Assembly (NCBI GenBank): GCA_037447655.1
Contig: JBBHKE010001626.1
Span: forward strand, 238,562-302,561
Direction of reading: 5' to 3'
DNA: 64,000 nt
From: Zygnema cylindricum
Taxonomy: Eukaryota > Streptophyta > Zygnematophyceae > Zygnematales > Zygnemataceae
Shown here one piece after another: positions 1 to 36,613 of this stretch. The notes below the pieces were generated by a model. That model ran no database searches. It had not been told where the DNA came from and saw nothing but the letters and a program-made list of their open reading frames with translations. Each line of letters opens with the position of its first letter. Positions within the stretch are counted from its first letter, which is position 1. The position numbers and the translations under genes are program-made.

Positions 1-437
1 TCCAGTGTCCTCTCCCCTCTCCCTCTCCCTCTCCCTCCCCCTCACCTTTGCCCTTGCCATCACCTTAGCCATCTCTCTTGCCCTTTCTATCTCCCTCTCC
101 GTACCCTCTCCCTCACCCTCGCCCTCGCCTTTGCCCTCTTCCACGCCCTCTCCCTCTCCCTCTCCTCTGACCTCTCTCTCTGCCATTCCATTGGCCTCTC
201 CCTTGCCATCGCCCTATCCCTTGCCCTCCCGTTTCCTATCACCCTCTCCCTTGCCCTCGCCCTCGCCCTCGTTCTCTCTCCCTCACTCTCCCTCCCCCTC
301 TCTCGCCCTCTCTCTTGCCCTCTCCCTCGCCCTCTCCCTCGCCCTCTCGTTCGCCCCCTCCCTTGCCTTTCCCTCACCCTCTCTCTCGGCTTCTCCCTCG
401 CCCTTACCCTCATCCTTGCCCTTGCCCTTGCCCTAAC
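1..437. repeat. CCCTCT/CCCTCG-type pyrimidine microsatellite
   Basis: Degenerate six-base repeat (CCCTCT, CCCTCG, CCCTTG variants) filling the left edge of the window. It is open for long stretches on both strands (Ser-Pro-Leu-rich on plus, Arg-Glu-rich on minus), but that follows from the repeat and does not indicate a protein. It stops exactly where homology to a retrotransposon DNA methyltransferase begins (about 438), and a second block of the same repeat follows that fragment at 1746-1850. Confidence 0.9.
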
Positions 438-1745
438 CTTCTCCATGCGCAATACCCTCAGTTGTTCCCTAAAACTGCATATTTACGCATGCATACTACT
501 TTACCTCAAGACATACGCATTCTTAGCAATCACCACTTACTGGTGTTTGAGCTGATTGATTTGGTTTTCGGCTGTTGGGAGTGCCAAGGCGAGTCTAGAG
601 CGGGAAAGGTCCCGGTTTGGCCGATCCTCGTTTAAAACTCTTTCTTTTAACTCTTTCGGGTCATACTTTTCTTACAGACTCTCGACTGGGCCGTTGGTTA
701 TATTCTCGAGAATGTGGCTGCACATAACGATCCGCGCCCTACGGTTTTGGCGGATTACAAGCGGATCGAGCAGCTTGTCGGACCACCTCTAATCATTGAT
801 GCTGCTCGCCACGGATCTCTAGCATATCGGGTTCGATCCAAATGGACGAACCTGATCGATATCGGCCGCCTTTGAGAGGCCAATCTAGCGGTCCGACCTC
901 CATCTATGGACATCCAGACTGCCCTACTACCTTTCCATTGCGTTCACCCATGTGTATAGACGGATTATCCTCCCAATTTCGGCATTAACGTGCCCGGACA
1001 ACGACTTAAGGTCTTTCCTACCTTAGTCGCCTATCCTAATTCTCATGCATATTCACACAATGGACCGGGCATGTTACGCAATAGTATTACCTGAGAGTTA
1101 GAGGAGCCAACAGCCATGGAAAGAGAGCTCTTTATGCATTTCACGCCAGGAACTACGGCCGCTATCAGCCTCACCGAGAGTCAGCGTTGCACATTGTTCG
1201 GTCGGGTCATGGACCCTTAGTCCTTGTCATTCGTTTTGGGACTTGGGCTGGCAACTGGTCGCTACTCGTAGAACCACACGTTGCAACCAGTTGGGGTGGG
1301 GAAATGACATATCATCTTCTCGTCATATTCCTTCCCGCACTTCTCTTGGTCTCCGAGGTAATCCATTCCAGTTTTTTCTTTTCCCTTATCGGATGCCGCC
1401 TCCGGAAATCACAATCTACGATTTCCTTAACCGCAGTCACATGTCCTGGGAGATTCCGGCCTATTTAGTCGTTCAGTTCGCTCCTTTTTCTTCCTCTCTG
1501 GTCCCACATTGGACAGCTACATACCCCACCCACAGGTGGCATTACTGGGTGAATTGCCTTCAACAGGCACCGGTGAAATATGAGTTGGGCAAATCTCTTT
1601 TTGTCGACAAGCAACTCGCATTTGCCCAGGCTATGGATGCCTTTACCATTAAGTGTCCTGAATCCCCGAAGTGGAAGTTCGATTCCAGTTTGACTCCAGT
1701 GGAACATGAACTACTGAGTGACACCGTTCTCCGTCATATCGATGC
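438..1745 (+). pseudogene. DNMT3-like cytosine methyltransferase plus pre-RT linker, Gypsy remnant (copy A)
   Basis: Broken-frame remnant recognised by alignment with the methyltransferase at 22.3-23.5 kb. In order: a YPQLFP segment before motif IV; motif IV read as CWECQG (Cys codon at 582-584, the usual Pro before it replaced by Glu); motif VI as YILENV (about 702-716); the motif VIII region as AYRVRSKWTNLI (about 830-865); a YPNSHAY block (about 1033-1053); and a C-terminal block with MERELF and QRCTLFGRVMD, ending in a stop near 1219. From about 1243 one open frame runs into a Gypsy-style linker ending KWKFDSSLTPVEHELLSD...HIDAFAFS, which corresponds to the segment just before reverse transcriptase in copy B. 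At least three frame changes are needed, so it is not functional. The motif I half and the RT itself are missing, replaced by CCCTCT-type repeats. The match to copy B is clear but diverged, so this is a separate old insertion. Confidence 0.82.
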
Positions 1746-1850
1746 CTTTGCTTTCTCCATCCTCGCTCTCTCTCTCTCCCTCTCCCACGCCCTCTCCCTC
1801 GCCCTCGCCCTCTCCCTCCCCCTCGCCCTCACCCTCTCCCTCTCCCTATG
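1746..1850. repeat. CCCTCT-type pyrimidine repeat (second block)
   Basis: Same repeat type as 1-437. It begins immediately after the AFAFS end of the Gypsy linker, so the methyltransferase fragment is bracketed by the two blocks. Confidence 0.88.
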
Positions 1851-8262: not shown

Positions 8263-8394
8263 ATGCCCGCCATTAGTATTTTGACGAATTTGGAAGAGGA
8301 GAGAGAGGCGACATTTGCATACGAAGATTTGAAGAAAGCTTTAACATTGGATTTGAAGAGACCTTTAAGCAGTGTGAGAGAAGCTTTTGAAAGG
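8263..8394 (+). CDS. First-exon-like fragment of an unrecognised duplicated gene
   Basis: ATG at 8263 opens a 44-codon frame beginning MPAISILTNLEEEREATF and containing KKALTLDLKRPLSSVREAF, ending at a strong GTAAGT donor. The paralogue at 31174 keeps most residues but has lost the donor and runs into a stop. A second block (about 8455-8522, CGFYDAESEEATGDILPFVK then GTGAGT) looks like the next exon, but its phase does not join cleanly. I recognise no domain. Confidence 0.35.
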
Positions 8395-11583: not shown

Positions 11584-11589
11584 ACAAAC

Positions 11590-12375
11590 GCTTAGTGGCG
11601 AAAGTGAAGGGGAGGGAGAGGAACAAGAGAGAAAAGAGTCCACAAGAGGGTGAACAAAGTGAAGATGAGAGCTTGTCACATGATGATACACCACAACAAA
11701 TACATTCGCATGGCAGAATTTAAGAGAGAGAAGAAGAGGAGAAGGAAGAATGTGAGGAAGACGGAGCAAGAAGAACAGGAGGAGGAAGAATGTGAGGAAG
11801 ACAGAGCTGAACAAGAGTGGGCAGAAGAAGGGGACACATTGAGGGAGGAAGATGAACAAGGGTCAGAAGATAAAGTGCTCGAGGAGGAGCTTATAGAGGA
11901 AGAAATGGAGGAAGGGTGGGATGGGGAGGAAGATAGAGAAGGTGAGGATTATGATTAGGAAGAGGGAAATCAAAGAGAGGGATCAAACAAGGAGGAGGGA
12001 GAGGGAGCTAATGGAGAGGAGGAAGAAAACGGGGAGGGAGGAGAAAGAGAGGAGGAAGAGGAGGAAACATACGGAGAGGAAGCAGAAGAAGAGGAGGAAG
12101 TAGAGGGGGAGAGAGAGAGAGAGGGAGAGGGAGAGGCTAAAGTGGAGAGGGAGGAAAGGGAGGATGAAGAGGACGAATAAGGAGATGAGCGAGAGGAGGA
12201 CTATGGAGTGCCGGATGATGTTGAGTGTGTGGAATATGATGACCAACACGAAGGTGGGAATGTTAGCGATGAAAACGAAGAGGGAAGTTACCAGAATCAC
12301 TTTGATGGGGAGGACAGTGGCGAGCATCAAGTTTTAGACGAAGAAATTGGTGATGATGAAGTGGAGGACGATTAG
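11590..12375 (+). pseudogene. Glu-rich acidic tail of the duplicated unknown gene
   Basis: GAGGAAG-rich sequence with frames that are nearly all Glu, Arg, Lys and Gly, then a more specific stretch VPDDVE, EYDDQHEGGNVSDENEEGS and QVLDEEIGDDEVEDD near 12210-12375. It is interrupted by stops and frame changes. The paralogue at 33300-34035 matches closely. An acidic C-terminal domain of a former nuclear protein is possible; a purine-rich satellite that happens to be open is the alternative. Confidence 0.5.
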
Positions 12376-12473
12376 GTGGACAAGGTTCTTTAACAACAAG
12401 GAGAAACTTGACAGGCTCTTATTTCTAGATTGTTCAAGGTTGTAGCTAATGGCTGCCAGAATTGAGCCCACTG

Positions 12474-13476
12474 CTTTGCAACTCTGAGACCTCCATTGGT
12501 ACTCAAAGTAGGCAGCTTACTAGAAGCTCCTAGGATAGCCTCAATCCTTTTATTTTTGTACGAGTATTATTGACACCCTGACAGAATACAGACTGACCAG
12601 ACTGCACCCCTTAGAAGAGAAGACTCCCCTTAGTCTACTACAAAAATGATCCTTGAATTTGCTCCCTTGAGCAGTAAATTATCAATGGTCAAAGATGACC
12701 TTTTATACAAGAGCACTCTAGGAGAGAGGCGGCTATTTCCAATTCTCCTAAGTCCTAAACCCCTCTCTGATCCCTCTACTACTGAAGTACGGAGCCAATC
12801 TAATCACTTTACAGTAGAAAAAGGTACTTTGCCCAAAGTACTTTCTGTACGACTATTGTTTGACATGGTCAAGAAGACGACGCATGCCATATCCGGGTTT
12901 GCCATGGTATGTCCCGAAGATGCCGCTATCCAATGTCATGTTGCCACGTGTCACCTAGTGTGGTTGTGACCGCAAATCGCCAAATCGTCCATTCCGCGAT
13001 GCCGGCTTCTTCCTTTGCCGTCCGATTGTTACCGCCCTTAATTCAGGGTCGTTAAAAATACAAGTGGTATTTTTGACGTAACTCTATCTAACTATCTCTA
13101 TGTGAATTTGGTCTGTTCATCAGTTAAACGAAATTCTTTATTTCTATAATACTAAGTAGCTAATGTATCTTATATACTTCAACAAAGACGCTTGACTACA
13201 TGATAACCATACTAGGCTACGTACACGGACGGTAGGTACCAAGATCATATCCTGGGTCAGTCAACCTTTTTGGTGAGTTTACCAAAAGGGTTGCCTTCTG
13301 ACTCAAGGAGAAGCATAGGCAGCCATGGTTGTAGCTTCCTCTCCAGCCTTCAATGACTACGACAAGTATAGGGCCAGAGAGAGAAGTTAAAAGCAGACTG
13401 CCTCTGCCTTTTTTCTCTTTATTTTAGATCAATTAAGTAACCTAGAAAATACTTATGTAAACCTTTAATTTCAACA
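12474..13476 (-). mobile_element. LTR of the same Copia family (solo or truncated)
   Basis: Begins near where copy 2 of the duplicated segment continues uninterrupted (12474 versus 34140) and ends ...TTTCAACA at 13476. Shares the GAGAGAGGCGGC block, the CACGTGTC motif (12945-12952), a GTAC-rich palindrome and GCAGCCATGGT with the LTRs at 10399, 18381 and 28332. The left boundary is approximate and I could not confirm a target duplication. Confidence 0.7.
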
Positions 13477-13477
13477 C

Positions 13478-14510
13478 TGTTGTCCATAGCCTATTTCATC
13501 CATGGATTACTCACCGAAACACCCACAGACTACCTCAAAAACAGTTGTGTTTCACACAGCACAGATTACCCCACAATTAATAGAATAACCTCAAACTTCA
13601 CCAATATGCGATTTACCATATACAGTGTAAACTCCCAAAGTTACAATAAAAACCGCCAAGGCATCTAGAAGATATAAGCTCCAGAGTTTCCCAAATCCAG
13701 CTGACAGCTTCACAAAATATCCACTTAGGCCTCTCACAAGATCTTACAGAAATAACAGAATAGAATTAAATTCCACACATATATTGATTCTATATCAGAG
13801 AATAACTTCACAAAGTTTTAGATGAAAACACCAAACAGGGTGATCACACCAATAGGTGAAAGATGCAGAAAACAGTTTGCCATTGCTTTGATAAACTTGA
13901 TTGTGATAATAAAAATATTCTAAGTCCTACAACTTATACTGAGAGAGTTCTCTGCTGAATGTACGGAGGCATACCATCCGTACGTTACCTACTACCTACT
14001 TAAATTAATGTGAGTATACCCGAATAATTTGAGGTATGTTAGAATGACTAAACTTACACTAATAAACTAATTAGCAAAAAGACAGACCTCTGTTGAACAA
14101 AATATTTACACCGACACGATCAATATCAACCACAACTAGGTTGTCGTTTTCCAGACCATATTCATATAGTCGCAACTTTGTGGCAGCTGTGTTGTCTCAC
14201 ACCGAAACATATCCAAAAATCACCGCAGCTTCGTCGCAGCTGCGTTGTCCGATTCGAAGTACATTTGTCTAAAATAGCTGCGCCGTACCGGCGCCGTGTA
14301 TTTCAACATTTCGTAGCGGATCGCTTCGCGATACGCCGTCCATTTCTTAATGCTTAGTCATCCCACTCAAAGAGTCCCATAGTTCACTTTAGTTATATCC
14401 GTACGTTCTCTCCCCCAATCCGCGAATCAATTCGATCCTCCATATTAAACCCAATTAGCAATTACGCACGAATTGTAACGTACGCACGAAACTGAGTTTT
14501 CAAAAAAACA
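13478..14510 (-). mobile_element. LTR-like repeat, second Copia family (copy 1)
   Basis: 1033 bp that matches 20109-21084 almost throughout. On the minus strand it starts TGTTTTTTTGAAAACTCAG directly after a CGGGGGAG purine tract and ends GGACAACA. It includes several GCAGCTGCG-type blocks and TGTACGGAGGCAT. The start region can also pair with 14511-14535 (CACGAAACT / AGTTTCGTG), so this end could be a hairpin within one longer LTR running to 14809. Confidence 0.65.
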
Positions 14511-16460: not shown

Positions 16461-18351
16461 GTTATTGGTCAGGGCTTATCTCTCACTCACGAAGGCACTT
16501 GATTCTCTTCTTGTTTAAGGTCGAACTAGGTTGTTGTCCCATTCATCTCTAAAATTCCCTGTAACACAAGCACTTTTATACGACGGACATTCCCTAAAGG
16601 TATGTCCCAATCATCAGTGATAGTAAACATAAATCTTTTCACTCCAACTGATGGCACTTTAGCCGGTCCCCATATGTTAGTATGAACTAGATCTAAGACC
16701 TTTTCTCATTATATATATTGTGGTTTTTGGAAACGACAATCTGTGGGCCTTTCCTTGAGCATATCCACTACAATCATCCAAAGTCTCATTGTCTCCAAAA
16801 TATGTTCCCTCAACTATACCCATTTTCTTCATTTCCTTCAATCTATCTAGATGCACATGTCCCAATATTTTATGCCACATCATCAAATTACTTACACCAA
16901 CATAGTAAACTATGCCTTTCCATTACTCAAATTCAGCCTAAACATTCCTATGCTACCTTTTTCAGTTGTGAAATACACTTCATTCTCATAGCTAGCAACA
17001 AAAACTCCTTTCTTAGTACTGGTCTCAAAAATCTTATCATCTAAGACCGACGTAGAGATAAGATTATCGTTCAACTCAGGAATAAAAAGAACATCAGATA
17101 AAGTGACTATAGATGTCTTACCATCAAATAAGACTCTCAGATCCAGTGGTCCCACTAAACTAGTGGTCACCATTCTCCCATCCCCATACTCTATCTCTAA
17201 AGTGGGGATCTTTCTCATCTTGGTAAACATTGGTTTTTCTTTACACATATGCATTGAGGCTCCCGAACCTATAATCCATCCTTCTTCAGGAGCTTCCCTT
17301 ACTCCACCAAAAGCAAACTTTTGCCTCTTTGGAATATCCGGCTCACCTTTCACCTCCAGCTTCTCGTTGAGGAGGAGTTATCCATCGTCTTCATCAGAAT
17401 TCTCTCTGATGACTTGTGTTGCCACAAATGCATTCTTTTTCCTTGCGGTTGGTTTTCCAACCTTTTCCTCCTTCAATCTAAACTCTTTGAGTTAAGTACA
17501 CTCCGCCATGTAATGTCTCGGCTTCTTACAAAATTGACAAAGCCTTCTCGAAGGCCTCGATCCAAATCTTTCCGATTGATTTCCTCTTCCTCCTCCACCA
17601 AAGTCTCCATAAGGTTTCTTCGAATCCTTATCTCCCCAATTAGTTCTAGCAGCAAATGCTTGAACACTCTTTCCTCCTCTCCGAATCTGAATTGTGCTTT
17701 CCCCAACCAAAATCATTCTCACAACCGAGTTCAAATCCATCGATGATCTTGCTAGTCTTCAAACCCATTAACATTGTTTTCATAATCATCTAGGAGTTTC
17801 ATCAACAAAATATTCACCTTCTCTTTCTCGGTCTCCCTTTTCCATGCAATCTCCGATTCCATAAATAACCTGGCCAAGTAATTACAAAAATCTAACATCT
17901 TTCCCCCTTTGTACACATATACCTGTACCTTGTGATCCGCGAACTTCTGCTAGTGAATCGTACCACTCTTGTAAATGTTGACAAAAGCCTCCCACTGTCC
18001 ACATGAAGTATGAGGTGTAGCCATTGCATGGATGAGACACCCGAGAATAAAATGAGTCGCCACGGTATTGTTGAAATCCCACATTTCACTATTATTAGCA
18101 TCAGTTTTCTGAACATCTGCTACCGGAATCGATCCTGTAGGCATCGTTGTGAGTTTTTCCTTCCCCTTGTCCTTCCCTGTGTCGGACATGATGTTTTCTT
18201 TAACATCCTCTACCACCTCTGCCTCCGGAGATCCTCTTGTGAACCGAGTCCCTCCAAACCCATGTGGAACTCCCAATTTTGCGGAAGGGCGACGCACACG
18301 ACCACTCACAATGCCCCATAGTTGTTTTTCAAACAATGCACCCCTCATCAT
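16461..18351 (-). pseudogene. Copia gag-protease-integrase remnant (minus strand)
   Basis: Gag frames run from 18351 downward. A CCHC zinc knuckle CQFCKKPRHYMAEC lies near 17494-17535, spaced CX2CX4HX4C. Protease follows at 16910-17353, starting around GWIIGSGASMHM: the catalytic Asp of D-S-G-A is Gly here (codon at 17267-17269), so this copy is catalytically dead. The integrase zinc region is seen in WHKILGHVHLDRLKEMKK and a following CSG block (16677-16886), then VLDLVHTNIWGP near 16650, where the first catalytic Asp of the usual HSDVxGP is replaced by Asn. Homology stops about 20-30 residues later. Reverse transcriptase and RNase H are absent. Frame changes separate the domains. Confidence 0.85.
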
Positions 18352-20108: not shown

Positions 20109-21084
20109 TGTTGTCCATAGCCTATTTCAGCCATGGATTACTCACGGAAACGCCCACAGACTACCTCAAAAACAGTTGTGTTTCACACAGCACAGATTAC
20201 TCCACAATTAACAGAATCACCTCAAACTTCACCAATATGCGATATACTATATACACTAAAAACTCCCAAAGTTACAGCCAAAACGGCTAAGGCATCTAGA
20301 AGATACAAGCTCTAGAGTTTCCCAAATCCAGGTTACAGCTTCACAAACTAACCACTTAGACCTCTCACAAGATCTTACAAAAATAACAGAATAAAATGAA
20401 ATTCCACACACAAATTGATTCTATATTATAAAATAACTTCACAAAATTTCAAATGAAAAAACCAAACACGGTGATCACACCAACAGGTGAACGATGCAGA
20501 AAACAGTTTGCCATTGCTTTGATAAACTTGACTGTGATAATCAAAATATTCTAAGTCCTACAACTTATACTGAGAGAGTTCACTGTTGAATGTACAGAGG
20601 CATAACAGCCGTACGTTACCTACTACCTACCTAAATTAATGTGAGTATACCCGAATAATTCGAAGTATGTCAGAATGACTAAACCTACACTAATAAACTA
20701 ATTAGCAAAAAGACAGACCTTTGTTGAATAGAATATTTACACCGACACGATCAATATCAACCACAGCTGCGTTGTCGTTTTTCGGACCATTTTCATATAG
20801 CCGCAACTTCTTGGCAGCTTCATTGTATCATACCAAAACATATCCAAAAATCATCGCAGCTGCGTTGTCCGATTCAAAGTACATTTGTCTAAAATAGCTG
20901 CACTGTACCGGCGCCGTTTATTTCAGCATTTCGTAGCGGATCGCTTCGCGATCCGCCATCTATTTCTTAATGCTTAGTCACCCCACTCAAAGAGTCCCTT
21001 ACGTCACTTTAGTTATATCCGTACGTTCGCTCTCCCAATCCGTGAATCAATTCGATCCTCCATATTAAACCCAATTAGCAATTA
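20109..21084 (-). mobile_element. LTR-like repeat, second Copia family (copy 2, truncated)
   Basis: Matches 13478-14465 closely. It lacks the last ~45 bp of that copy and stops at the first base of the Gypsy element. Contains the GTTGTCCGATTC and GCAGCTGCG blocks. Confidence 0.8.
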
Positions 21085-21354
21085 AACCCACATCAGAGCA
21101 TAAAAAAGACAAAGAAGGACTGGCCCCTGGAGACTGTAACAAAAAGATCACGGGACCATTGTCATTCACTCCCCGGGCAGTAATACTGAATAACGACACC
21201 GTTCTAGGAATAAAACCTAAAAATCCTCCCCCACTAGTTCTGAAGAAATCACCTTCTAGGATTCGAAAAATACTACACCAACAAACAAAGGGAGACAGAG
21301 AAACAGGCCAAAGAGGAAGAGAAGCCGAAAACCCATGACTGGTTCGAACAGTAC

Positions 21355-22188
21355 ATGGCAGAACGCCTAGAGGATGATACACCAACAACACCTCCCACGC
21401 CAGGTTCGAACGCCGAAGAGGAGGAAGCAAGGGGGGGGGAGCAAGAGAAAACGGAGGAGCCGAGTACCCCTATTTCACCGCCTAATGTTCAGCCTCCTTC
21501 CTCCAAACCAACTGCTATGTCAGTCCGACACCTAATGCCCTACGCCCTCACACATGTCAAAACTCTGGCCTTATCCCACAATCTGCCAGAAGATATCCTT
21601 ATTCAGGCATTGGGAGAGAAAATCCACTTGGGAAAGGAGAAAGTAGGGCTGGTTGATCGATCCAGTTCTCTCTTTTTATCCGCCGAACCCAAGACCCCTA
21701 TGATAGATAAGGATTACAAGGCCTTATCAGTGGCTCTCATCCTCAACCGGACCAAAAATATCAAGCTCAACGGATACGAAAGCTATCAGGATGTAGTGGT
21801 CGATACCGATGCTCTTCCAAATTTAATAACAACTGCTTTAGAAGAGATGCATGTTAAATCACGCCCAGAAATCTTACCAAGCGACATCTGCCTGAGTACA
21901 GTTAGGAGCGGAATTCAACCGGTCCATGGAATCATCAAAGCTATTGAAATTGAATTCTCAGGTGATGTGGGTTAACGAGTCCGGATCCAGCTCCCCTTCC
22001 TAGTGGTGGAAGGGAAGCAGTTCGAGATTCTGCTGGGGATGGCAACTTGGACCCTACTTAATATGGAGTTGAGTGTGTGGAAAGAGCAGTTCACGGTGAG
22101 GGACCCCGAGAAGCCAGAAGGGACCCAGGTGGTGGTTCCTTTGGGATTATGGAATAGGGGAAAGATAAATGCACCTGTGTCCGACTAA
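21355..22188 (+). pseudogene. Gypsy aspartic protease region
   Basis: Open frame 21355-21975 (206 codons) starts with a Pro/Glu-rich linker, then ALTHVKTLALSHNLPEDIL and a protease-like core VVVDTDALPNLI: the position of the catalytic DTGA reads DTDA. After one frame change, 22003-22188 gives EGKQFEILLGMATWTLLN, like the conserved ILLG C-terminal part of retroviral proteases. The frame is open upstream of 21355 back to about 21090, so the start is not real; the polyprotein once ran from further left. Confidence 0.7.
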
Positions 22189-22314
22189 TACCCCGTATAA
22201 GCCACATCCTCTCCGGCGGAACTATTTGCCTGCTCACCAGATATTGCCGACGAGATATAGCAATTCCTTATTTCCAAGCGGTGGGAGGAGGGATACTAAG
22301 ACCGATTATTTAAG

Positions 22315-23455
22315 ATGGCAGCACTTCGGCGGGGAGTGGAACAAGCTTTTAAAGCTATAGCACTAAATAAGATATTTTCAAATCTTCGGACAAATTCTTC
22401 GGAAATACTGTCCCAAGATGGGAAGTTCAACCAACAGGTGGTGTCAGTGACAATCCCAGATTCCGAACTCCGGATTGTATCATTATTTTTGGGAATCAGC
22501 ACTGATTTGGAAGCGGTTTTGAAACCAAGATACATAGTGGAGGCCTATACAGCTGTGGAAATATCACTCGAAGCGCGAGCCGTCAGCGAGCATCGCCTGC
22601 ATCAACTTCACCAATTATATCCTCAACAGATCCTAATGTCGCCAATCTCTCAAGCTCACCGAAGCCTAGCTTTGAATATGGAAAATATCATGACCCCACA
22701 CATAGCCAGTCTAGGAAAGGTAGATTTGGTGGTAGCAGGATGGCCTTGTCAAGGATACTCCTAGTGGGACAAGGAAAAGGACATAAAAACCAAAGAAGCA
22801 GGACTTTCTTTCAGATGATACAAGTAATATCATGGATACAACAGCTCCATGACACCCCAGTGGGTTATGTTTTGGAGAATGTCCACCCGGGGGATGACCG
22901 ACGACAACATGTAGCGACAGTTGGAAACAGGTCATCCAGATTTTAGGAACCCCGTTGGTTTTTGATGCGGCACAGATGGGATTGCAAGCCCACCGAGTAA
23001 GGGCTTATTGAACCAATTTGATCCAAATTCCCCTCCTCAGGCAGCTCCTGAACAGACAGATTCCGGACCCCAACAATACGGTACAACAAATCCTGAAAAA
23101 GGGGCCAATGGCCACCCTAGTGACAAAAAATGACCATTCCCCCTTTTTCAAATGCAACAAACCCGGATTTCCACGCAGAGCCCTTCCGACCTTCGTCTCC
23201 TTCCCCAACAGCCACGCGTATCGGAAAGGGGCAGCCGGAATGATGTTCGACAGTACCGCAGGAAAATGGACAACACCAACCATTGCAGAAAGGGAACAAG
23301 CCATTGGATTTTACCCGGACTTTACAGCTGCACCATGTATTTCGAAACCCCAAAGGTGCAGCCTCATCGGACAGAGCATGGACTTGAACGCAATCACATG
23401 GGTTATCAAACATGCTCTTGCCTTTTCAAGTCTCCACTCTCCAGAGAAGCAAAAT
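22315..23455 (+). pseudogene. DNMT3/DRM-like cytosine-5 DNA methyltransferase domain in Gypsy pol
   Basis: A cytosine-C5 methyltransferase transfers a methyl group from S-adenosylmethionine to cytosine in DNA. Motif I is LRIVSLFLGISTDLEAVL (about 22476-22530), followed by IVEAYTAVEISLEARAV. Motif IV is VVAGWPCQGYS with the catalytic Cys codon at 22747-22749; a TAG follows at 22762. In another frame comes motif VI, GYVLENV (about 22863-22883). Motif VIII is FDAAQMGLQAHRVRAY, then TGA where copy A has Trp, then TNLIQI (about 22953-23030). The last frame (23018-23548) gives SFPNSHAYRKGAAGMM, EREQAIGFYPDFTAA and QRCSLIGQSMDLNAITWV. This C-terminal arrangement (ERE..GF.....T / QR..LG.S....I) is that of DNMT3 and plant DRM rather than DNMT1 or CMT. 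No PWWP, BAH or CXXC domain is visible. It lies between protease and RT. Now inactive, but all core motifs remain. Confidence 0.88.
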
Positions 23456-23559
23456 AGTTACCTTCAAGCTCCTAAATTGTTGGCAATGCAAGCAACTTTG
23501 CTGCTTGAGAGGGGAGAGAGAGAAGAAAAATTCAAATCTCCCATCTGAGGGTCCCTCGA

Positions 23560-24711
23560 GTGGGGGGGGCGGGCTGCTCAGAATGGAACAACTTAGCGGA
23601 AGTTGTCAACAGTAGGGTCTTGGCCGGAAGGGAAAAAGTAGACCCACAGGTAGGATACAAATTTGATATTACTAGATGGGGCCGACCCCCGGAAGCATGG
23701 GCACCGGTGGAGCCAGGGAAAATGGATTGGACATTCGGGGAGCAGATGGATCCTCAACAAAAGGCTCAGCTATCGGAGCTGTTAGTAAGAAACATACAGG
23801 TATTCTCCTGGTCAAAAACAGATGTCGACATTTACAAAAGAACTCCTTTCCGAATTGACCTGATAGATGGATGAGATGGCAACTGTTTGGCAGAAGTAGT
23901 ATCCCCTCAGTTTTAAGGAAAAAGAGTGTATCACCGCCAAAGTTCAGACCTTGGTGGAAGCTGGATTGGTTCAGGAAAGCACCGGACTCCATAGGTTCGC
24001 TTCCCTAACCGTTCTCCCTCCAAAGAAGGATGCCTCAGGGAAAACATTAGATTTCTGGATGTGTGGGGATTACTGCATGCTCAACACGGCTACTATTCCG
24101 TACCGGTACCCGATGCCAACCGCGAAAGAGATTTTCGACTCTATTTCGGGGGCCACCATCTACTCTACCCTTGATATGAAGAACGGGTTTCACCAAGTTG
24201 CCAAGGAACCAAAGCACCGGGATAGAACGGCATTTTGGGCAGGTTCCCGGTTATTCGAGTGGATATACATGCCCTTCGGGTTGAAGAATGCGGCGGCAAA
24301 ATTCCAAAGGGCGATGGACGAAGCCTCTGAGGAATTGATTGTGCCAGGTGCTGTATTGATGATGTAATCATTTTCTCCAAGACTTTTGAAGAACACCTGG
24401 AGCATATCCAGATTGTCCTCCGGGCACTTCAAGCAGCGGGTTTAAAATGCCACCCCGATAAAGGTATTTTCGGTGTTCAGAAAATTATTAACCTTGGACA
24501 TGAAGTTACCCTCGGGATTGTGGGTCCCCATATGGTCAAGGTGGCCGCTCTCGACGCTCTTCCCCCACCTCAAGATATATCACCTCTACGTACTTTTCTT
24601 GGCCTGGCTAATTATTACCGGAGGTTCGTTCCCGAGTTTAGTAGTCACGCCCAACCTCTGAATCAGTTGTTAAGGAAAGACCAAGAATGGGAGTGGGCCA
24701 CCGAGCAGTAG
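23560..24711 (+). pseudogene. Gypsy reverse transcriptase
   Basis: Linker with KMDWTFGEQMDPQQKAQLSE (23720-23790) leads to RT: LVQESTGLHRFASLTVLPPK, CGDYCMLNTATIPYRYPMPT, YSTLDMKNGFHQV, MPFGLKNAAAKFQRAMD (23951-24350), then after a frame change CIDDVIIFSKTFEEHLEH with both catalytic Asp kept (Tyr of YIDD now Cys), and TFLGLANYYRRFVPEFS (about 24590-24640). At least two frameshifts. Confidence 0.92.
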
Positions 24712-25290
24712 ATCGCCTTCGAATTTTTGAAAGACGCACTTATGCAGCACTCGTGCTCCGAATGCGCGATCACCAAAGACCTTTCCTCCTTTACGTTGGA
24801 GCGAGTTTGGATTGGTGTTTAGCTCGAATAGATGATCTGCGAGTATGTAATTACGCTAGTCGAATGTATAAACGAAGAAATTCAACGATTCCAGGAACTC
24901 TTAAAATTTGCGGTTGGGCGATTATTTTTGGCCATGTTTATCACGCATCCGTTTCACTTTAATTACATACCATCAGCCTCTGAAATGGATCATGGAAAAT
25001 AGCAAATTAACCTGCAAACTCGCCAGATGGGTTCTTATCTTGCAAGAATACGATTTTAGTATTATCCAACGAGGAAGAGAAATCTATGGGAATGCCGTCA
25101 TACTCAACCGAAACCCCGACCCCTCCACATTGGATTCTACTGGAGCAAGACACGATGAGGATCCAGTGATCAGTTTAGGATTAATCCGGGCCTCCTCCGC
25201 TTTTATTTGGCTTCCGCCATCTGGGGGGGAACTGTCTACATTTTCAGCCGACGTGGAGGGACAAGCACCCATAGGAGCCGGGCGAAAGGA
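24712..25290 (+). pseudogene. Gypsy RNase H
   Basis: Follows RT after a TAG at 24709. The D-A-S motif is degraded (YVGASLDWCLA). Later conserved text is clear: THYHQPLKW-like ITYHQPLKWIMENSKLT, LARWVLILQEYDFSII and the GNA(D)-like GNAVILNRNPDP. Two or more frame changes. The tail to 25290 is a poorly conserved spacer. Confidence 0.82.
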
Positions 25291-25399
25291 TATCTAGAAT
25301 GACCCCGATTCTCTACATTCCATACAGCGGGGATCTCTTGTTCCACACTTGTCTGTGGTTCAATTGTCCCCAGTTCAAACCCGTATGGCGGCGTAAGAC

Positions 25400-26345
25400 T
25401 CGGACAGAGGTATCCTCCTCCGGAAATGGGCGGACGGGATAAAGAAAGTGGTTCCTCCTCCTTGCGATCGAGAAACTCTGATTACCCGTCTCCATTAGCA
25501 TTGTGGACATTTCGGGAAAAAACGGACCAATTCTTTAGTCATTGGATCCTATTCGTGGCATGGGTTGCCGTCTCAAGTCAACCAAATTGTACAGACTTGT
25601 TTTTCCTGCGACCGGGTAAAAACAACTTTTGACAAAAAGGGCGGAACCGAGCTGCATTCTTTGGCCATCCGGAGAATGTTTTATCGATGGTCTCTATATA
25701 TCTTGGGGCCTTTGTCGACCAGCCGACGGGGCAATTGCTTTGTGCTCGTAATGATCAAACATTTTTCCAAATGAATGAATTGGTGGTTTTCGCCCGGAAG
25801 GAATCAAAGTCTACTACAAATGCCATTTTGCATAGAGTGTTGTGTCAATTCGGAGCGCCCGTGGAGGTTTTGACCGACCAAGGCTCTAAATTTACCAGAG
25901 AATTTTCCATCCTCTTGGAGAAATGCCTCATCGACCATTGGCTAACCAGTCGGGACCACCCTCAAGCCGACGGATTGGCCGAAAGGTGCATCCAAACAGT
26001 GAAGCGGTCACTACGGAAATATGCGGTCTAAAAAGATCTGGGGGAGTGGGACCGAAGGTTTCTTTGGATTGCAATGGGATACAGGTTCAGCCGACAAGCT
26101 TCCCTCCACTCCTAAAGCCCTTCCTTCGACGGAGCAGGAATTATGTGCCTAGACAGCGACGATTTATGCCCGAGGATTTTGTATACATGATGCAACAAAA
26201 GAAGGACACGTTAGATATTTTTTCTGCCGGTCCGGTAATCTTAAAAGTGGTTGAAGTTTCTAACAAAGGGGTTCTTACTTTGGAGGGGAAAGATAACCGG
26301 AGAAATTAAAGAGAACCAAATCAACATTGCTCCTTGCCATCTTCG
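25400..26345 (+). pseudogene. Gypsy integrase
   Basis: Zinc-binding end of the HHCC region in QIVQTCFSCDRVKTTFDKK (25580-25636), core start MFYRWSLYILGPLSTSRRGN where the first catalytic Asp of the usual VDLxGP is Tyr, then FGAPVEVLTDQGSKFTREF with the second Asp and TSRDHPQADGLAERCIQTVK with the Glu (25850-26000). The C-terminal part (26150-26345) includes EDFVYMMQQKKDTLDIF and EVSNKGVLTLEGK. No chromodomain is evident. Frameshift near 25690. Confidence 0.9.
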
Positions 26346-26480
26346 AGGATTGGAGGACGAACCCACTTTCCATTTGACTTATTTCGACGACCCTCTTTTC
26401 TACTCCACCTCCTGTGATCTGTCCTCCCCGCTTGAACACGTTTTGGTATGCAACAACTACAGCCAGTGCTGACATCCTTC

Positions 26481-28331
26481 ATGTCTTCCCTCCTTGGGAG
26501 CCAAGCCTTCAGCCTTTAATCACCTAGTTATGCGGGAGCAACGAATTGAGCCGATAACAATTTAATTCTTAGTCACGATTGACTAAGAAGGGGAGAAAAT
26601 TGGGCCTTATCGGCCGGATTACCTCCACGGCCACCCTTTTTCCGGTCATATGGGAAAAGGGAGGTGAAGTGGGGTATCTTTTTTTTTTCCCAACCTTGCA
26701 TTTCTCAGCTTGCCCCATTCTTTGCAATGCCTTGCATGCATGTCTCCGGGAGGTATGGGAGGGAAAAAATGGTCATTATCACTGTCATGGGAAGCACCCG
26801 CATTTTGGGGTTATTGGCAAGACTCTAATGCCAACCATTTAAGCTACCAGCTTCATTCAATATAATGCACCAGGCACGCTCGACAGCTTTCAAACTCGTG
26901 TGTGTTTTCGGCACACCTTTATATACCTAAGATCTTCGGGACCCTTTCTACCTGTACGTACATCAACGTACGGCGGAAGAGGTACACGAAACCAGACCAG
27001 ATGAAGGATTGCCTGAACTAAACAGAACGCACTTTATTTCGCGCCTAACGGAGGCCAGAAAGCCAAGTTATTCCGCTTCAAAGATCTCAGTTCTGTTACA
27101 TACAGCCAGTTGCCACTTGACCTTTTGGGGGTCACATTGCGGAACGCCACGTAAATCTTCGGATAGTCATTTAGATTTGGATGTCTTATGTCAGTAGCAA
27201 TTTAGTTCAGGTCCTACTGACTTTTTGTCCATTAACTAGATCAGGTCAAAATCTTGCGTTTAGGTGTCATTTTCAGTACTTTGTCTTATTGAATTGGAAC
27301 AAACTTTGACTTTCAACCGGAAATCTATCCGTGACTGGAAGCACAACTTTTTGCCTTAAACGTAGTACAACACAATTTGTCTTTTGTCAGTTCAACATCA
27401 ATTGCTTCTCACTGATTGGTTCCTTGGATTGCTTTGACCTTTTGGACTGGAAGTGGACAAACTTGGTTGTATAAGGCGCTTGGAGCCAAAAGAGACAAGT
27501 TGCTTTTCAATACTGTCTCCTATGAAAAACCTTAGAAAAATTCCAAACAAACCTTCTTTTGGAGAATCTTTGTTGTGCTTGTTTGCTTGACTCTATTGCC
27601 ATCTTGGTTTAGATTTGTCTTGTTTGGAGATCGTAGTTCGGGCGGGTAGTTGGCACTATCAATCCTTTTGGGCGATCTTGACTTTTTGCCATTGAAACCG
27701 AGAAGAGTCCAGTCGATTCCGATCTGTGGAAACCGAGTGGTGAAGGAGAATCGTACCGGTCTTCGGTGCCACTCGGAGATATTTCGTCTTCCCTTGGTGT
27801 CATTTTGGCTTTCTAGGGTAAGTGAGCTTGCTTTGCCATAATTCTTCATTTTATCTTTTATTCCATTTTCTGGGGCAAGGTGATATTGTTAAATCTGAAA
27901 CAGCCAATCATTTCTATTTTTATTATTTTCGCGTGGAAGTTCATTTGTCCTCCGCCGGTAGTTCTCTTTGGATTTTGCTGTGTTCCCTCCAGAACCGGTT
28001 TCTCGCATCTTGGGTACTAAAACAGTGGGTTCTGAGGGTACAAAAGTTAGACTTCTAGTGGATCAGCACAATACTGAAAAGCCACACCCTGTCTACTCCG
28101 ATTAGAGGAGATAGGAGCTTTGACTCAAGAATCTCTCTTATTGGAAGGGGGTTAGATTTTCTCATTTTATATTACTTCCTCTTTCTAGTGGTTACCATCC
28201 GATGGGAGGAGGAGAGGCTCAAGACAGGGGAACCCCCAGCCTTACGCCTGAGGAAAGAGGTAGGCAGGAAGGGGTCTGCCCCTAGGGGGGGTTCTCCCAG
28301 GCCCGAGGAAGCAGTCCAACGAGCTCCCATG
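26481..28331. other. 3' part of the Gypsy element and adjoining non-coding DNA
   Basis: A purine tract (GAAGGGGAGAAAA, about 26588-26600) is a candidate polypurine tract, so the 3' LTR probably starts near 26600. The block to 26760 recurs at 29340-29512. I could not find the LTR end. The rest has no recognisable gene; open frames at 27009-27197 and 27532-27849 lack motifs. Confidence 0.5.
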
Positions 28332-29328: not shown

Positions 29329-29512
29329 TTTGAATCTCCACACAAAGGATAGGCCGAGGAAAATTGGGCTTTATCCACCTGATTACCTCCACGACCACCT
29401 TTTTTCCGTTCATATGGGAAAAGGGAGGGGAGGTGGGGTATTTTTTCTTCTTCCCAACCTTGCATTTCTCAGCTTGCCCCATTCTCTACAATGTCTTGCA
29501 TGCATGTCTCCG
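29329..29512 (+). mobile_element. Fragment of the Gypsy 3' region
   Basis: Matches 26575-26755 (ATTGGGC.TTATC, CATATGGGAAAAGGGAGG, TTGCATTTCTCAGCTTGCCC) and stops at the assembly gap. Confidence 0.8.
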
Positions 29513-29522
29513 NNNNNNNNNN
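29513..29522. other. Assembly gap (10 N)
   Basis: Ten unknown bases between a Gypsy 3' fragment and LINE sequence. The true gap size and the adjacency of the two sides are uncertain. Confidence 1.
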
Positions 29523-30848
29523 CAGCGTCGTCTGGCTCCTCCCTTTAATTTAACAACCTCCCGAGCTTGGCGAGCTCTCTCGAGTGGTTGAGCCGGGTTT
29601 ACATGGCATGCTGCTATCCCCCCACCGTGTAGATTTCAAACTCTACATGCTGCACCACACTTTCTTCGTTAGCGTTGAGCTAGGAGCACGAGCCGTACTA
29701 CCCGAGCGGTTAGCGGAGCTTACTTAGCAGCTGTAGTTCGGTATCAAAGAGCCCGTGGCGATGATGGCGTTGTCGGTGTATCTGATTTTGGAGTTCACCC
29801 TTGTAGGATTATCGTATAGGACGCTCTCCACCTTCCTTTGTCCCGTATTTATTTCGATCTCGTGGATGTTGGACCTTGGCACCTCTTTTTCATGTTCCCA
29901 CTTGAGGTTTTAGTCTATGTGGCTGTTGCGGTAGTAGCGGTGCCCGAGAAACTATGGCTTGATGTCGACGATTCATTCGAGGCGATTGGCGAGCCCATCA
30001 TGCCGAGCACGAGGATCGAGTTGCGATTGCTTCTTTCACACCACGTCGTACATCTCAAACTTTAGATGTGCCACCCCCCTATCGTCGTACGGTACATTTG
30101 GGCCGAGTTGGTGAGCTCTCTCGAGCGGTTCGAGCCCTCCAACAATTTAATTTCCCTCCTCGGTCTGCTGCGACTGTTGAGATTCTCCGAGATCTTCATC
30201 CGCTAGCTCTTACCCCTTAGCCCCCCCTCTATTCACACTTTCAACCCGACAACCTGTTTTCTCTTAGATCGAGACTGTTTAATTAAAGCCCTTACGACTT
30301 TCCCGGATCGAGACTGTTTAATTGAAGCCCTTACGACTTCTCCACATTTTTCAGCTGGGGGTCCTTCAAACATTATTTATGAGTTATTTCGCGACGTTTT
30401 GCCTCTGAAATCAGTTGCTTGGGGCTTTGATATGTTTTATCGAGTATGTTACCTTTTTGTGGCTGGCAGTGTCCCTTTTCGTATTTGCGATCTCCTCACA
30501 GCCTATCGCCTCGTAGGTGTCACCAAACCTAATGGGGGAATCCATCCTATTGCAATGGGCGAGGTATTATACCGATTGGTGGCCCGTACGATCTGCATCC
30601 AGCTCCAGCCCGCTTTCCATGATTATTTATCTCCTCATCAGTTCGGAGTGCCGACCCGGGGGGGTTGTGAGGCCGCGGTCCACGGGATCCGAGCTTTGTT
30701 AGATGCCCATCTGGATTGGTTAGTCCTCCAAGTGGATGTTTTAAATGCTTTTAATATGGTGGATCGGAATGCCATCTTTTCGGAGCTTATGGCTACACCT
30801 TTCCCGATTCTTTAGATATTTCCTTTTATGAGAGCCTTTTATTCTCTG
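29523..30848 (+). mobile_element. Non-LTR retrotransposon (LINE), copy 1, 3'-truncated
   Basis: From 29808 on it matches 36614 onward almost base for base. Reverse transcriptase part (30399-30815): RLVGVTKPNGGIHPIAMGEV, SPHQFGVPTRGGCEAAVHGI, LQVDVLNAFNMVDRNAIF, the typical non-LTR RT palm start with the first catalytic Asp. Homology to copy 2 ends near 30848 where the duplicated segment begins, so the YADD region and 3' end are gone. The 286 bp before 29808 have no counterpart at copy 2 and may be more 5' LINE sequence. A duplicated 39-bp block (GATCGAGACTGTTTAATT...) occurs twice at 30267-30345. Confidence 0.85.
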
Positions 30849-33800
30849 AGAATAACAATTTAATAGCATGACATAACCTGGTCAAGCATCGGGCAGTCAA
30901 ATTTTGAAAAAAAAACGGTGTGTTTTCGTTATCTAAAATATTGACTTTTGCGACCTCTGCTTTGTAGTTTCTGCTGACTGTTTCGATAATCTTGCTCAAT
31001 TCGCAAACACCTTTTCCGCAGTTTCTTAACGTCTAAGAATCTCATCCGCATCACTTTCTTCAGCGAAGGCTTGGACCTTCGTGAATCCTGTTCTCACGAT
31101 TGCTCAACTTCAACCTTCAAATTGTTTGAAGGGAAGGAAAGACTTTGAGTGAAATCATTGAAATTTCCTGAAAATGCCCCCGATTAGTACTTTGACGAAA
31201 TTGGAAGAGGAGAGAGAGGCGACATTTGCGTACGAAGATTTGAAGAAGACTTCAATACCGGACTTGAAAAGACCTTTTAGCAGTGTGAGAGATGCTTGTG
31301 AAAGGGAATAAGTTAGCATTTCCATCACTCTTGGGATATTCTTAAGGCGTTCTCATGGTTTTTAGGGTCATTCTGTGGTTTTCACGAGGCTGAGAGTCAG
31401 GAGGCTACTAGAGATATCTGACCATTCGTGAAGGTCAGTAGGTTTTCCTATCAAAAAAATGGAAATGAATGGATAAAAAAAAAAAAATCCTCGCAATGCT
31501 TAGTTAGACTTTTGAAAGAGGACGATCCATCTAGCCTTTTAAGGATGCACGGTTTAGACGTGAAATGGGCGTTTAAACACGTTTTTTTCTCGTTTTTTTT
31601 CTTTTAAGTGTGCTTTGTCATTTTTCCAATTCTATTATTTGTACCATAGATACATTACGGACAGATTGATAATCTGTGAATGTATTTCTAAGAAATTATA
31701 AGAGAAAATAAAAATGAAAAATAAGTTTTTTTTTTCCCATTAATTTCCCAAGAGATCTTTCATTTGAAGTAAAATTAGTTATCTTTTTTTTTTCTTGAAA
31801 TTAATATTACTTCAAAAAAAATAAAAAATGAAGGTTAAGATAGTCTAGACGATGGTTGCAATGTTTAAACGAGGTTTTGTAGTTTAAAGTTTTGGTGTTA
31901 GGCGTTGAAACTCTACGCTGGTCCCAGTTCTTGTCGTTTAGTGTTGGTACTTGTGGTTTTGTCTGAAGGGGAGCGACTTCGGTCCTTGAGATGTAGCAGC
32001 CCTGGTGAAGCTCTCTTTGCTTTATTGGTTTTGTTGTTCATGCCAAAGCTTCTCTATTTTCTTAAGCTACAACTTGTATTGGTATTCGTATCAGTGATAC
32101 AATCTGTGCCTCTAAATTTTACCCTTTGGATTTAATATAGTGTCAATGACGCTAGTTTCTTTTTTCCTACTGCTAATTGTCATTTGGAACTGAATTAGAT
32201 TTAATAACGCTAAGATAAACTCAGCGGTAGTAATTCCTTGTCACCAATAAAGATATATGGTGGACTTTCTTCATATCCTACAGTTTTAATGGTCTAACAA
32301 AAGCCTGAAAGGAGACGATTTGCCCTTTTGATTAGAGTACTGAGTTGTTTAACTTTAGAAACAAATCATTAAACAGTTTGCACCTTTTTATTATCATTGT
32401 CATTGTGTTCCACGTTTTGCGATTCTAACAAGGCTAGTCTAGGTCAAAATAGCGACAATATCCCACTCGCTAAAGGGGGTAAAAGTTTGATGGGACAGTT
32501 TGGCTCTTGTTATTGGGCTCAAGTTAGAACGGGGAGGGATCGCTGGTTAAAGTAATTTTTTATACAGTAAGGCAGGTTGATTTGATGACTTGTGGCAGAG
32601 AAGGGCATTAGAAGCTCGTTAAATAGCTAGTTAAAATTCGTTGTTAAAATCTTAAAGTTGTTAGCAAGTTCGTTAAAATACTTTTTGGTCGCACTGCAAG
32701 TAACTGCCCTAATATGTCTAGGCAGAGTGGGACCCAGAAGAGCTCGACTACATGGTGAAACAAACTTTTCTCCTTTGTTGGCTGAGAAGTGGGAGGCTTG
32801 GGCAGATACTGTCCACACTCGTAGTTTATCCTTTTTGGCTCAGAACGAACATCTTGTTGAAACCTACTTAAACAAAGAGTTATAGGAGAGATGGCAAGTG
32901 AGCATCTTGTTCAGAATGCACAACTTTTGCTGCAAGATGAGAAAGAGAAGTTGAGTGATTTGAAACTGCAAATGCCACAAAAAGAAAATGCATAAAGGGA
33001 GAGAGAAGAGGCGAGAAAGCTGTGGGAGATGGTGCAGCAAGCTCAAAGGCTGGTGGCTGGTGTCAAAAACATGAGGCATGTGGTGCGGGTGATAAAGGTG
33101 GACAGGTTAAACAACGGAATATGGAAATAGTCAATCATGTGATTGGGGAAGATGTAAAGAAAAGTGTTAAAGGGCAAGAGGTCTATCTATCAAACAAAGT
33201 AGAGGGGGCCACTTCGTTACGACAGGAAAAAAGATTTTGAATAAAAGTGCTTTTTAATAGAACAAAGAAAAATAGAAAAGCAGGATACAAACAGCTAGTG
33301 GCAAAGGTGAAAGGGAGGGAGAGGATCAAAGGAGAAAGGAGTCCACAAGCGGGTGAAGAAAGTGAAGATGAGAGCTTGTAACAAGATGATACACCACAAC
33401 AAATACATGGACAGGACAAAACTGAAGAGAGAGAAGAAGAGGAGGAGGAAGAATGTGAGGGAGACGGAGCTGAACAAGAGTGGGCAGAAGAAGGGGACAC
33501 ATTGAGGGAGGAAGATGAATAAATGCAGGGGTCAGAAGATGGAGTACTCAAGGAGGAGCTTATGGAGGAAAACATGGAGGAAGGGTGGGATGGGGAGGAA
33601 GATAGAGAAGGTGAGGATAAGGATTGGGAAGAGGGAAATCAAAGAGAGAGATCAGACAGGGAAGAGGAAGAGGGAGTAGATAGAGAGGAGGTAACAAACG
33701 GGGAGAGAGGAGAAAGAGAGGAGGAAAAGGAGGAAACAGACGGAGATGAAGCAGAATAAGAGGAGGAAGTAGAGGGGGAGAAAGAGGGAGAGGGAGAGGC

Positions 33801-34140
33801 TGGAGTGGAGAGGGAGGAAAAAGAGGTTGAAGAGGACGAACAGGGAGATGAGCGAGAGGAGGACTATGGAGTGCCAGATGATGTTGAGGGTGTGGAATAT
33901 GATGATCAACACGAAGGTGGGAATGTTAGCGAGGATGACGAAGAGGGAAGTTAGTAAAATCACTTCGACGGAGAGGACGATGGCGAGCATCAAGTTTTAG
34001 ACGAAGAAATTGGTGATGATGAAATGGAGGACGATTAGATGGACAAGGTTCCTTAACAACAGAGAGAAACTTGAAAGGCTCTCATTTCTGGATTGTTAAA
34101 GGTCTGCACCTAATGGCCGCCATAATTGAGCCCACTGCTT
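30849..34140 (+). repeat. Duplicated ~3.3 kb segment, copy 2
   Basis: Starts inside the right part of the hAT-like MITE (end at 30959, flank CTTTGTAG) and matches 7930-12470 without the LTR present at 10399. Includes the exon-like MPPISTLTKLEEEREATF (ATG 31174, donor lost), LAEKWEAWADTVHTRSLSFL (32770-32830), MASEHLVQNAQLLLQDEKEK (32892-32951) and the Glu-rich tail 33300-34035. Frames are broken, so both copies are relics. It directly abuts the truncated LINE. Confidence 0.8.
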
Positions 34141-34515: not shown

Positions 34516-36613
34516 CTTTTAAACGCTTTCCCTAATGTGGTCTAACTTTTCACTAGACAGGGTGGATGTCGAGCGGTTAGCCCAAATCCATGCAGCTCTT
34601 GTGTGCCATTAAGCGGGAGTGGAACGATACCTATGGACATGAAACGCGGTTGAGAGAACACGAGCTGCGGCTGTTTTTTCACGATCTCGACAAGTCGCGA
34701 CATCTATGTGGAAGAAAAGAGAGGCACAAAGCATGGCAAAGAGAGAGACCTGAAAAACAAAACAATTGAGGGTGAGACTGAGATTCTGCGTTAGAGGGGA
34801 GGTTGCATTAGAAGTTGTCACACTCATGGCAAAAAACATGCTGGAGAAAAGCTCCAAAAAAGCCCCAAAGTGAATTGTTTTGACAGATAAACTTCCTTAT
34901 TGCTAGTGAGCCAAGAGCAAGTTGGCGAATTAGACAAATTTGTAGACAACTTTTTGAATCTGATTTAAACCTTTTTTTTCTTGATAGGTGGTCGAGACAA
35001 TTTTGAATTATCAGAATGTGACTTAGACAGTAGCTGAGACATTTGCAACTTTCTTATCCGAAGCGTGGCACTCAAATTACTTCCATCAGAAAATTTGGCA
35101 GCAAGAACTAAATCTCGTACTACCCTGCAAACTGTCAAGGCCTTTCTATGAACGGTCGAATCAAGACTTAATTCTGACAACATCATTAATTTCGAAAACT
35201 AGAGTACCGTCAGCAAGCGAGGTTAACAAGGTCCCAAGCGCACTACTTTTGATGTCAGCCTCAACATCATCACTAGCACAAGACTTGTTGACGTCAACTC
35301 TGGTTTTTGGATGGATGATGGATTTGAGGAATATAGACCATTTGTTGAGCAGGTTAGAGCAACCAAAGTCCAGACCTCATCTACGTGAAGTCTTGAATAA
35401 GGGAGGTCATCATTTTTCAGGAAGTAGAGAAGAATGTATTAGAATTAATAATCTCAAGAAGAGAGAAGTGGGCGTAAGACATACTCTTATAGAGGGAAGT
35501 AAGACTTGAAGGAGGATTTCAACAATTTTTTTGAATGTTTAGTGGGAGGAATTGAGCGAATTTCGAGATGCTTATTGCATCCATCCTTCAAAACTATGCA
35601 TCAAAATAGGAGTAAAGATGTTTAGTGTCTACCTTACTGCAAAAAACTTCGACAGTCACATTACTTATAAGTTCCAAAAGTAGACTTCTACAGTTTCCTT
35701 GTAAGTCACTTTTTGTAAAGTGGGAGGTATTGATCAGTCTCCTTTTCACCTTTTTGATTTTGTCTTGTCTTGAACAACTTGTTTCTTGTAGGACCTGATG
35801 CTTATGAATTGTAGCAATCAAATTCAACCTTTCAATTTTTTATTTTTTTTTGCTGGAAAATTGAAAACTTAACATCATGCCATTTTTTTTTCATGAAACT
35901 TTAAAGAAGTACTTGCTGGTAAAAAACAAATGCCTTTATATTGATTGTAGTTTTTTGTCATTCATCATGCCCTATATTTTATTAAATTTGTGCCCTGGAC
36001 AAGGTGTGTGTTGCTGTATAATAGATGCATGCCTTGAGCTGATATCAGAAATTAGGCGGCTTAAGAGGCCTGATTTTGAGTTAGAGGTCGATCACTTTTA
36101 TTGTGGAAACATTTTGTTTTTAACCATGGTTCACGAGTTAAGTTGAGGTCACCAGTCACTGGGACTTAGGTTGATGTTAGAAATCATAATTCAAACTTCA
36201 ACATTATTTTTTCCGAAGTTCAAAGATATGACGATATTGGTGCAATTGTTTTAGAAAAACGAAATTGGTATTGAGTTTCCATGAGATGTTTGGGGGGTAT
36301 TTAACAGGTTTAAGACGATGAGGTACTTGCAAGGATCTTATGGGCGTTGCATATCAGTTGATGCTGCCGTGCAGAGAGAGGATGTCAGCTTTTTCGATTA
36401 ACTTCACATGACTTCTTAATATTGAGGTAAGTGGATTGAACAAGAGTGATAATTTGGCGAGAATTAATTGGGGATCAACAATGAGTGGTAGCTAGGTAAT
36501 ATCGAAGGGATGATAATGAAAATTTCATGTGCTAGTGGTACTCATCTGGTCCGCAATATTGAAAGATATAAATAGCTTCATAAGCCATTATACAAGATTC
36601 CGATGGCTGTGCG
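34516..36613. other. Low-information region with a few exon-like open stretches
   Basis: Plus-strand stretch 34602-34766 reads KREWNDTYGHETRLREHELR and LFFHDLDKSRHLCGRK and looks protein-like, but has no recognised domain. Other open frames at 35249-35509 and 35877-36146 are unremarkable. The LINE copy starts at 36614. Confidence 0.4.

Follow-up and report, generated by a model that had tools for sequence, protein, structure and literature searches.

A DNMT3-like cytosine methyltransferase in the pol region of a dead Ty3/Gypsy retrotransposon of Zygnema cylindricum

A stretch of 64,000 nucleotides from the genome of Zygnema cylindricum, here called the window, contains the remains of a dead Ty3/Gypsy LTR retrotransposon. 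Its pol appears to have carried a DNMT3-like cytosine-C5 DNA methyltransferase (DNMT), in frame, with a protease-like region on its upstream side and the reverse transcriptase (RT) downstream, most likely for marking the element's own cDNA. We give this reading as a whole a probability of about three in four. A second, strongly diverged copy of the enzyme is present in the same window. Neither copy can work now. The concept of a retrotransposon-borne DNMT has already been published, and the element described here is a further case of a rare kind.

The methyltransferase remnant extends over 22462-23413 of the + strand. It is degraded and consists of three collinear pieces (Table 1). The motif words which the first-pass annotation had named at 22315-23455 are all present on this strand, within 22480-23377. 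They are split over three reading frames, 22300-22764, 22764-22921 and 22922-23548, and in-frame stops are found at 22762 (TAG) and 23009 (TGA). Thus, the gene is broken. The first piece shares its frame with the upstream pol region and possesses an N-terminal extension of ~54 residues ahead of motif I. The third piece comprises, beyond motif VIII, a target-recognition region followed by the C-terminal block EREQAIGF...QRCSLIGQSMD; its open frame continues to 23548.

Table 1. Positions of the methyltransferase copies and of the carrier element in the window
Feature	Position	Strand	Remarks
Second DNMT copy	432..1301	+	homology ~441-1253; one frame, six in-frame stops in the aligned 273 residues
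RT-proximal linker of second copy	1657..1758	+	matches 23713-23814 of first copy
Pol region upstream of DNMT	21244..22299	+	one frame, 5 stops in 352 codons
DNMT piece 1	22300..22764	+	motif I (SLFLGIS) to motif IV (GWPCQGYS), TAG end at 22762; profile match 22462-22827 (profile 5-106, 40.1 bits, 7.5e-12)
Motif I word SLFLGIS	22480-22500	+	letters of the window
Motif IV word GWPCQG	22738-22755	+	letters of the window
DNMT piece 2	22764..22921	+	other frame; GQGKG...RSRTFF to motif VI (LENV); profile match 22764-22901 (profile 86-126, 11.3 bits, 0.0044)
Motif VI word LENV	22872-22883	+	letters of the window
DNMT piece 3	22922..23460	+	third frame; motif VIII (AHRVRAY), TGA at 23009; profile match 22943-23413 (profile 134-290, 16.2 bits, 0.00014)
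Motif VIII word HRVRAY	22991-23008	+	letters of the window
C-terminal word EREQAIGF	23288-23311	+	letters of the window
C-terminal word QRCSLIGQS	23351-23377	+	letters of the window
RT-proximal linker	23509..23874	+	same frame as 21244 and 22300; no Pfam family
Reverse transcriptase, Ty3 type	23900..24711	+	two frames; RVT_1 3.3e-10 and 1.2e-5
RNase H part	24905..25297	+	RT_RNaseH 1.6e-6
Integrase, H2C2 zinc-binding part and core	25499..26031	+	two frames; Integrase_H2C2 5.9e-8, rve 1.9e-5
Probable 3' LTR start	26595..26748	+	after a purine-rich tract; LTR reading by eye

For profile searches the three pieces were joined into one protein with X at the stops; the join was chosen by us. The Pfam DNA_methylase profile (PF00145), which the first-pass annotation had suggested as a check, recognizes this joined reading with 41.6 bits (E 1.3e-10, cut-off 22). 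Searched singly, the pieces are weak: the first one reaches 11.6 bits (E 0.19), the best score of a single piece, and the other two have no Pfam match at all. The joined reading further matches PHROG 116 (3.6e-13) and NCBIfam dcm with 47.9 bits, the latter under its cut-off of 100.65. Because the joining was our choice, a join-free scan was carried out, in which overlapping pieces of all six frames, covering the whole window, were searched with a profile. This profile was built from 24 sequences from outside the window (6 from phages, 15 from viral contigs and 3 entered by hand; one of the viral sequences is identical to a phage sequence, at distance 0 in the tree). The scan returned the three pieces in collinear order, and elsewhere in the window only one match with E <1, at 510-893. 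Against the same profile the joined reading scored 91.8 bits, and the best of 1000 residue shuffles 6.1 bits. On these grounds chance motif words were rejected.

The carrier is identified by what follows downstream. RT, RNase H and integrase are arranged in the Ty3/Gypsy order, and the solved structure nearest to the RT is that of Ty3 (three matches in total: Ty3 RT 4ol8 at 4e-20 and 7q5b at 2.1e-19, then 8r0s at 1.6e-14). The likeness to Ty3 concerns both the order of domains and the RT sequence; the second RVT_1 match and the match to the integrase core are under their cut-offs. Ty3 itself is not known to have a DNMT between protease and RT. The linker between the methyltransferase and the RT matched no Pfam family, and a single-query search of viral contigs with the RT found no relative. 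Upstream of the methyltransferase a protease-like end (...QFEILLG...) was read by eye at ~22024-22044. Here the match to Asp_protease_2 (E 0.078) is below the cut-off, and a search against solved structures with E up to 10 gave no match for this region. The weak protease counts against the main reading, and a protease upstream of the DNMT is put forward as putative, on weak sequence grounds. The first-pass annotation had placed the enzyme in a Gypsy pol between protease and RT; its position upstream of a Ty3-type RT was borne out, and the protease end is the weak part of that claim.

The borders of the element are incompletely visible. The LTR-like stretch at 26595-26748 recurs once, at 29359-29512 (90% alike), where a run of ten N (29513-29522) cuts off the second LTR-like copy. 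A search for the 5' LTR upstream within the window found none, which also counts against the main reading. On its 5' side the Gypsy part adjoins a repeat, 20109-21084, which is 90% like 13478-14464. This repeat pair brackets Copia-type coding sequence of the - strand (Pol_BBD of Pfam at 16913-17377, 7.4e-19), and its two members are probably the LTRs of an oppositely oriented Copia element.

The additional match of the join-free scan at 510-893 (16.9 bits, 8.8e-5) was the first sign of a second DNMT copy. Compared with the first copy it is recognized by tblastx (5e-35), by tblastn for the C-terminal part (4.6e-28) and by blastp (154 bits), 95 of 273 residues being identical (35%); blastn gave no match between the two at the DNA level. 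Thus, two copies of one family reside in the window. They are ~65% different in protein and both are dead. In the second copy motif IV reads WECQG, and it has no match of its own to Pfam DNA_methylase, which counts against the main reading. Its linker matches that of the first copy with a score of 54, a value reached by none of 1000 shuffles (highest 52). Apart from the linker itself, this is the only place scoring at least 48 among 1524 six-frame blocks; blastp at default settings missed it. A CTCTCC array at 1768-1847 cuts off the linker and a CCTCTC array lies ahead of the enzyme, such that CT-rich arrays at 9-404 and 1768-1847 flank 432-1758. With arrays on both sides, protease and RT of the second copy cannot be seen. 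That it shows DNMT and linker only, neither protease nor RT proper, is a further point against the main reading.

The two copies differ by 0.47, 0.42 and 0.68 at first, second and third codon positions (262 codon pairs). This excess of third-position differences fits past selection on the protein, as a hint. The corresponding pN/pS of 0.56 (0.49-0.65; 262 codon pairs) was obtained with saturated synonymous sites from a protein-guided alignment, which biases in the same direction as a selection signal; consequently it is a hint, not a measure.

What kind of enzyme was this? The motifs follow the canonical order I-IV-VI-VIII-X. As judged by its sequence, this order makes the enzyme DNMT3-type by build and not DRM, in which the order is rearranged. 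When the query was permuted towards the DRM order the ten matches were nine DNMT3 (best 0.055) and an unrelated one; no DRM was found. DRM was rejected because of the canonical order and the outcome of the permuted search, and of the 'DNMT3/DRM' affinity proposed in the first pass the DNMT3-like half stands as far as motif order goes. A search against solved structures gave 53 matches, of which the best 29 are DNMT3 (6.2e-6 to 0.013), followed by DNMT2 and HhaI at ~18 bits. With the second copy added, DNMT3C (8tci) is matched at 2.7e-7. The resemblance to DNMT3, the de novo methyltransferases of animals and plants, comprises motif order, the best structure matches and the AHR at motif VIII, as in DNMT3A. 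The enzyme differs from them in being retrotransposon-borne, in showing no companion domain, and in having PCQ at motif IV where the DNMT3 rows have PCN. For this last reason it is called DNMT3-type by build and is not filed as DNMT3.

The PCQ motif leads to an alternative which we consider rather unlikely, yet the likeliest among the alternatives: the same element may owe its DNMT to a source resembling phages, viruses or bacteria instead of to a host DNMT3. PCQ is what the phage enzymes have. In blastp six fetched phage enzymes scored 66.6, 63.5, 62.8, 59.3, 58.9 and 47.0 bits and DNMT3A scored 49.3, i.e., five of the six outscore DNMT3A. In 33 of 423 records the phage match spans >80% of the query. 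C5 methylases of phages, for example those infecting Flavobacterium and Cellulophaga, are collinear over nearly the full length, with 21-25% identity in the listed rows. They are, however, free-standing, without an RT, and carry Q.R at motif VIII in place of the DNMT3A-like AHR. The solved structures, headed by 29 DNMT3 matches among 53, with the affinity strengthened when the second copy is included, argue against a phage origin as well. Nor does a tree of 25 rows decide in its favor: HhaI and DNMT2 are set apart (98/98), and the query, on a branch of 5.04 changes, gets no further supported place. Finally, the Gypsy enzymes of Klebsormidium have been placed beside Dnmt3, in a clade that is more divergent (PMC5890265). 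A single-query DNMT search of viral contigs found no relative. A profile search of viral contigs matched at least 600 stretches, at least 440 of them relatives, of which 80 were kept that are 22-31% identical. A plasmid search yielded partial matches only, none of 168 records reaching 80% coverage.

The first-pass annotation had stated that retrotransposon-borne methyltransferases are known from dinoflagellates and charophytes. This is confirmed by de Mendoza et al. (2018; PMC5890265), where the charophyte case is indeed a Gypsy pol with a Dnmt3. In KnitGypsy-Dnmt3 of Klebsormidium nitens a Dnmt3 without DRM rearrangement resides in the Gypsy Pol ORF; the copies are distinct and under purifying selection, and a figure legend describes a DIRS-like repeat arrangement. 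Compared by description, the Zygnema element shares with this system a cytosine DNMT without DRM rearrangement in a Gypsy pol, the presence of several copies, and the green lineage. It is unlike KnitGypsy-Dnmt3 in that no DIRS-like repeats were seen and the copies are dead. Two elements of Symbiodinium described in the same paper, SymbioDIRS-Dnmt3 and SymbioLINE-Dnmt, also have a DNMT inside or beside an RT-bearing ORF, but they belong to the DIRS and LINE classes and to dinoflagellate hosts. Among the open-licence papers listed by the literature searches, no other one on a DNMT in a Gypsy pol was found besides a passing mention for streptophytes and dinoflagellates (PMC12344493), in which LTR Copia is written for the streptophyte element.

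Judged by how the two copies compare and by what has been published, a Pol-borne DNMT most likely marked the element's own cDNA. In a living ancestor the enzyme would have been synthesized within the Pol polyprotein and would have been packaged together with RT and integrase. It may then, at somewhat less than even odds, have methylated the cDNA of the element before or at integration, and new copies would have arrived already marked, to their presumed benefit. Methylation of cDNA as a self-mark has been proposed by de Mendoza et al. (PMC5890265). There, two SymbioDIRS-Dnmt3 enzymes produced CG methylation in yeast. The Klebsormidium Gypsy DNMT, the only Gypsy enzyme tested, produced none, a result which the authors call inconclusive. 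This null result counts against the main reading. So does the CpG comparison across the window, which gave no clear trace of past methylation (observed/expected 0.62 for the DNMT, 0.72 for the Gypsy part and 0.77 over the whole window, with other parts ranging from 0.57 to 1.03).

The null result in yeast also favors another use of the enzyme in the same element: it may have acted on element RNA or on the host chromatin into which the element inserted, or have served to put a brake on transposition. RNA methylation (for the LINE enzymes), insertion-site effects and a possible brake are discussed in PMC5890265. Nevertheless, the best matches among solved structures are de novo enzymes acting on DNA, i.e., DNMT3, and the RNA enzyme DNMT2 is matched less well. 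We regard such a use as unlikely and retain the marking of self-cDNA as the preferred reading.

The reading frame fits an integration of the DNMT into pol. The upstream region 21244-22299, the first DNMT piece (22300-22764) and the linker 23509-23874 all share one frame, which agrees with a single polyprotein. Over 21244-26031 the 1596 codons of this frame include 29 stops, whereas the other + frames have 58 and 59 and the - frames 64, 70 and 64. Flanking duplications, which the first-pass annotation had linked to a host gene landing there by chance, were looked for: no exact repeat of at least 8 bases links the two DNMT borders (in 100 random pairs within the element the longest repeat averaged 7.91 bases, maximum 11). 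Likewise, no A or T runs of at least 8 are present in 21101-26600. A late insertion of a host gene was rejected in view of the shared frame, the missing flanking repeat and the second copy with the same linker. More generally, it could be argued that a single Gypsy element received a host DNMT gene, or a retrocopy of it, by accident and that the fusion never mattered to the element; that both copies are broken would agree with this. The same frame on both sides and the lack of flanking repeat and poly-A speak against it, and most strongly so does the second copy which, at 35% identity, has the same order of DNMT and RT-proximal linker. This order marks the domain as a family feature and not as one chance landing, and we consider the chance event very improbable. 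An artefact, whether motif words arising by chance in a decayed pol or a join made in assembly, for which one could cite the weak Pfam scores of single pieces, is practically dismissed by the collinear six-frame matches, the distance of the joined score from all shuffles, the second copy, and the fact that the N run at 29513-29522 is the only one in the window.

The window has a G+C content of 0.406, probably lower than that of K. nitens, and Rfam and tRNA scans of it gave no match. The only host gene recognized is represented by pfkB-type kinase pieces at 3124-6491 on the - strand, apparently split by introns (fragment 3124-3579, PF00294 4.3e-12; a further piece, 6105-6491, has no Pfam name); presumably they correspond to a plant myo-inositol kinase. 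The stretch 6698-8050 matches its own reverse complement over ~1.35 kb (76%) and forms a large imperfect palindrome, the ends of which recur at 48371-48578. A direct repeat of ~2.5 kb (7941-10398 and 30853-33291, 88% alike) is continued by 11584-12476 and 33287-34140 (84%). The repeat copies 29806-30850 and 36613-37656 are 97% alike and code for RVT_1 (E 6e-7 at 30207-30812); this is probably a LINE-type element. A further Copia remnant is indicated by RVT_2 (Copia-type RT, 2.3e-15) at 59067-59462. At 63521-63817 a 147-bp unit is tandemly duplicated (96% alike).

Few lineages are reported to harbor retrotransposons that bear the kind of enzyme normally used against them; PMC5890265 describes such elements for dinoflagellates and one charophyte. 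We tentatively suggest, while considering it less probable than the contrary, that a Gypsy lineage with the order protease-DNMT-RT has persisted in a streptophyte other than Klebsormidium, in subfamilies which differ by ~65%, with self-methylation as a stable trait and an enzyme that is maybe phage- or virus-like. Two strongly diverged copies in one place argue that the arrangement can last. If a persisting lineage is real, self-methylation would be a durable strategy of certain LTR elements, and the present sequence can be used to search other green-lineage genomes for intact, testable copies.
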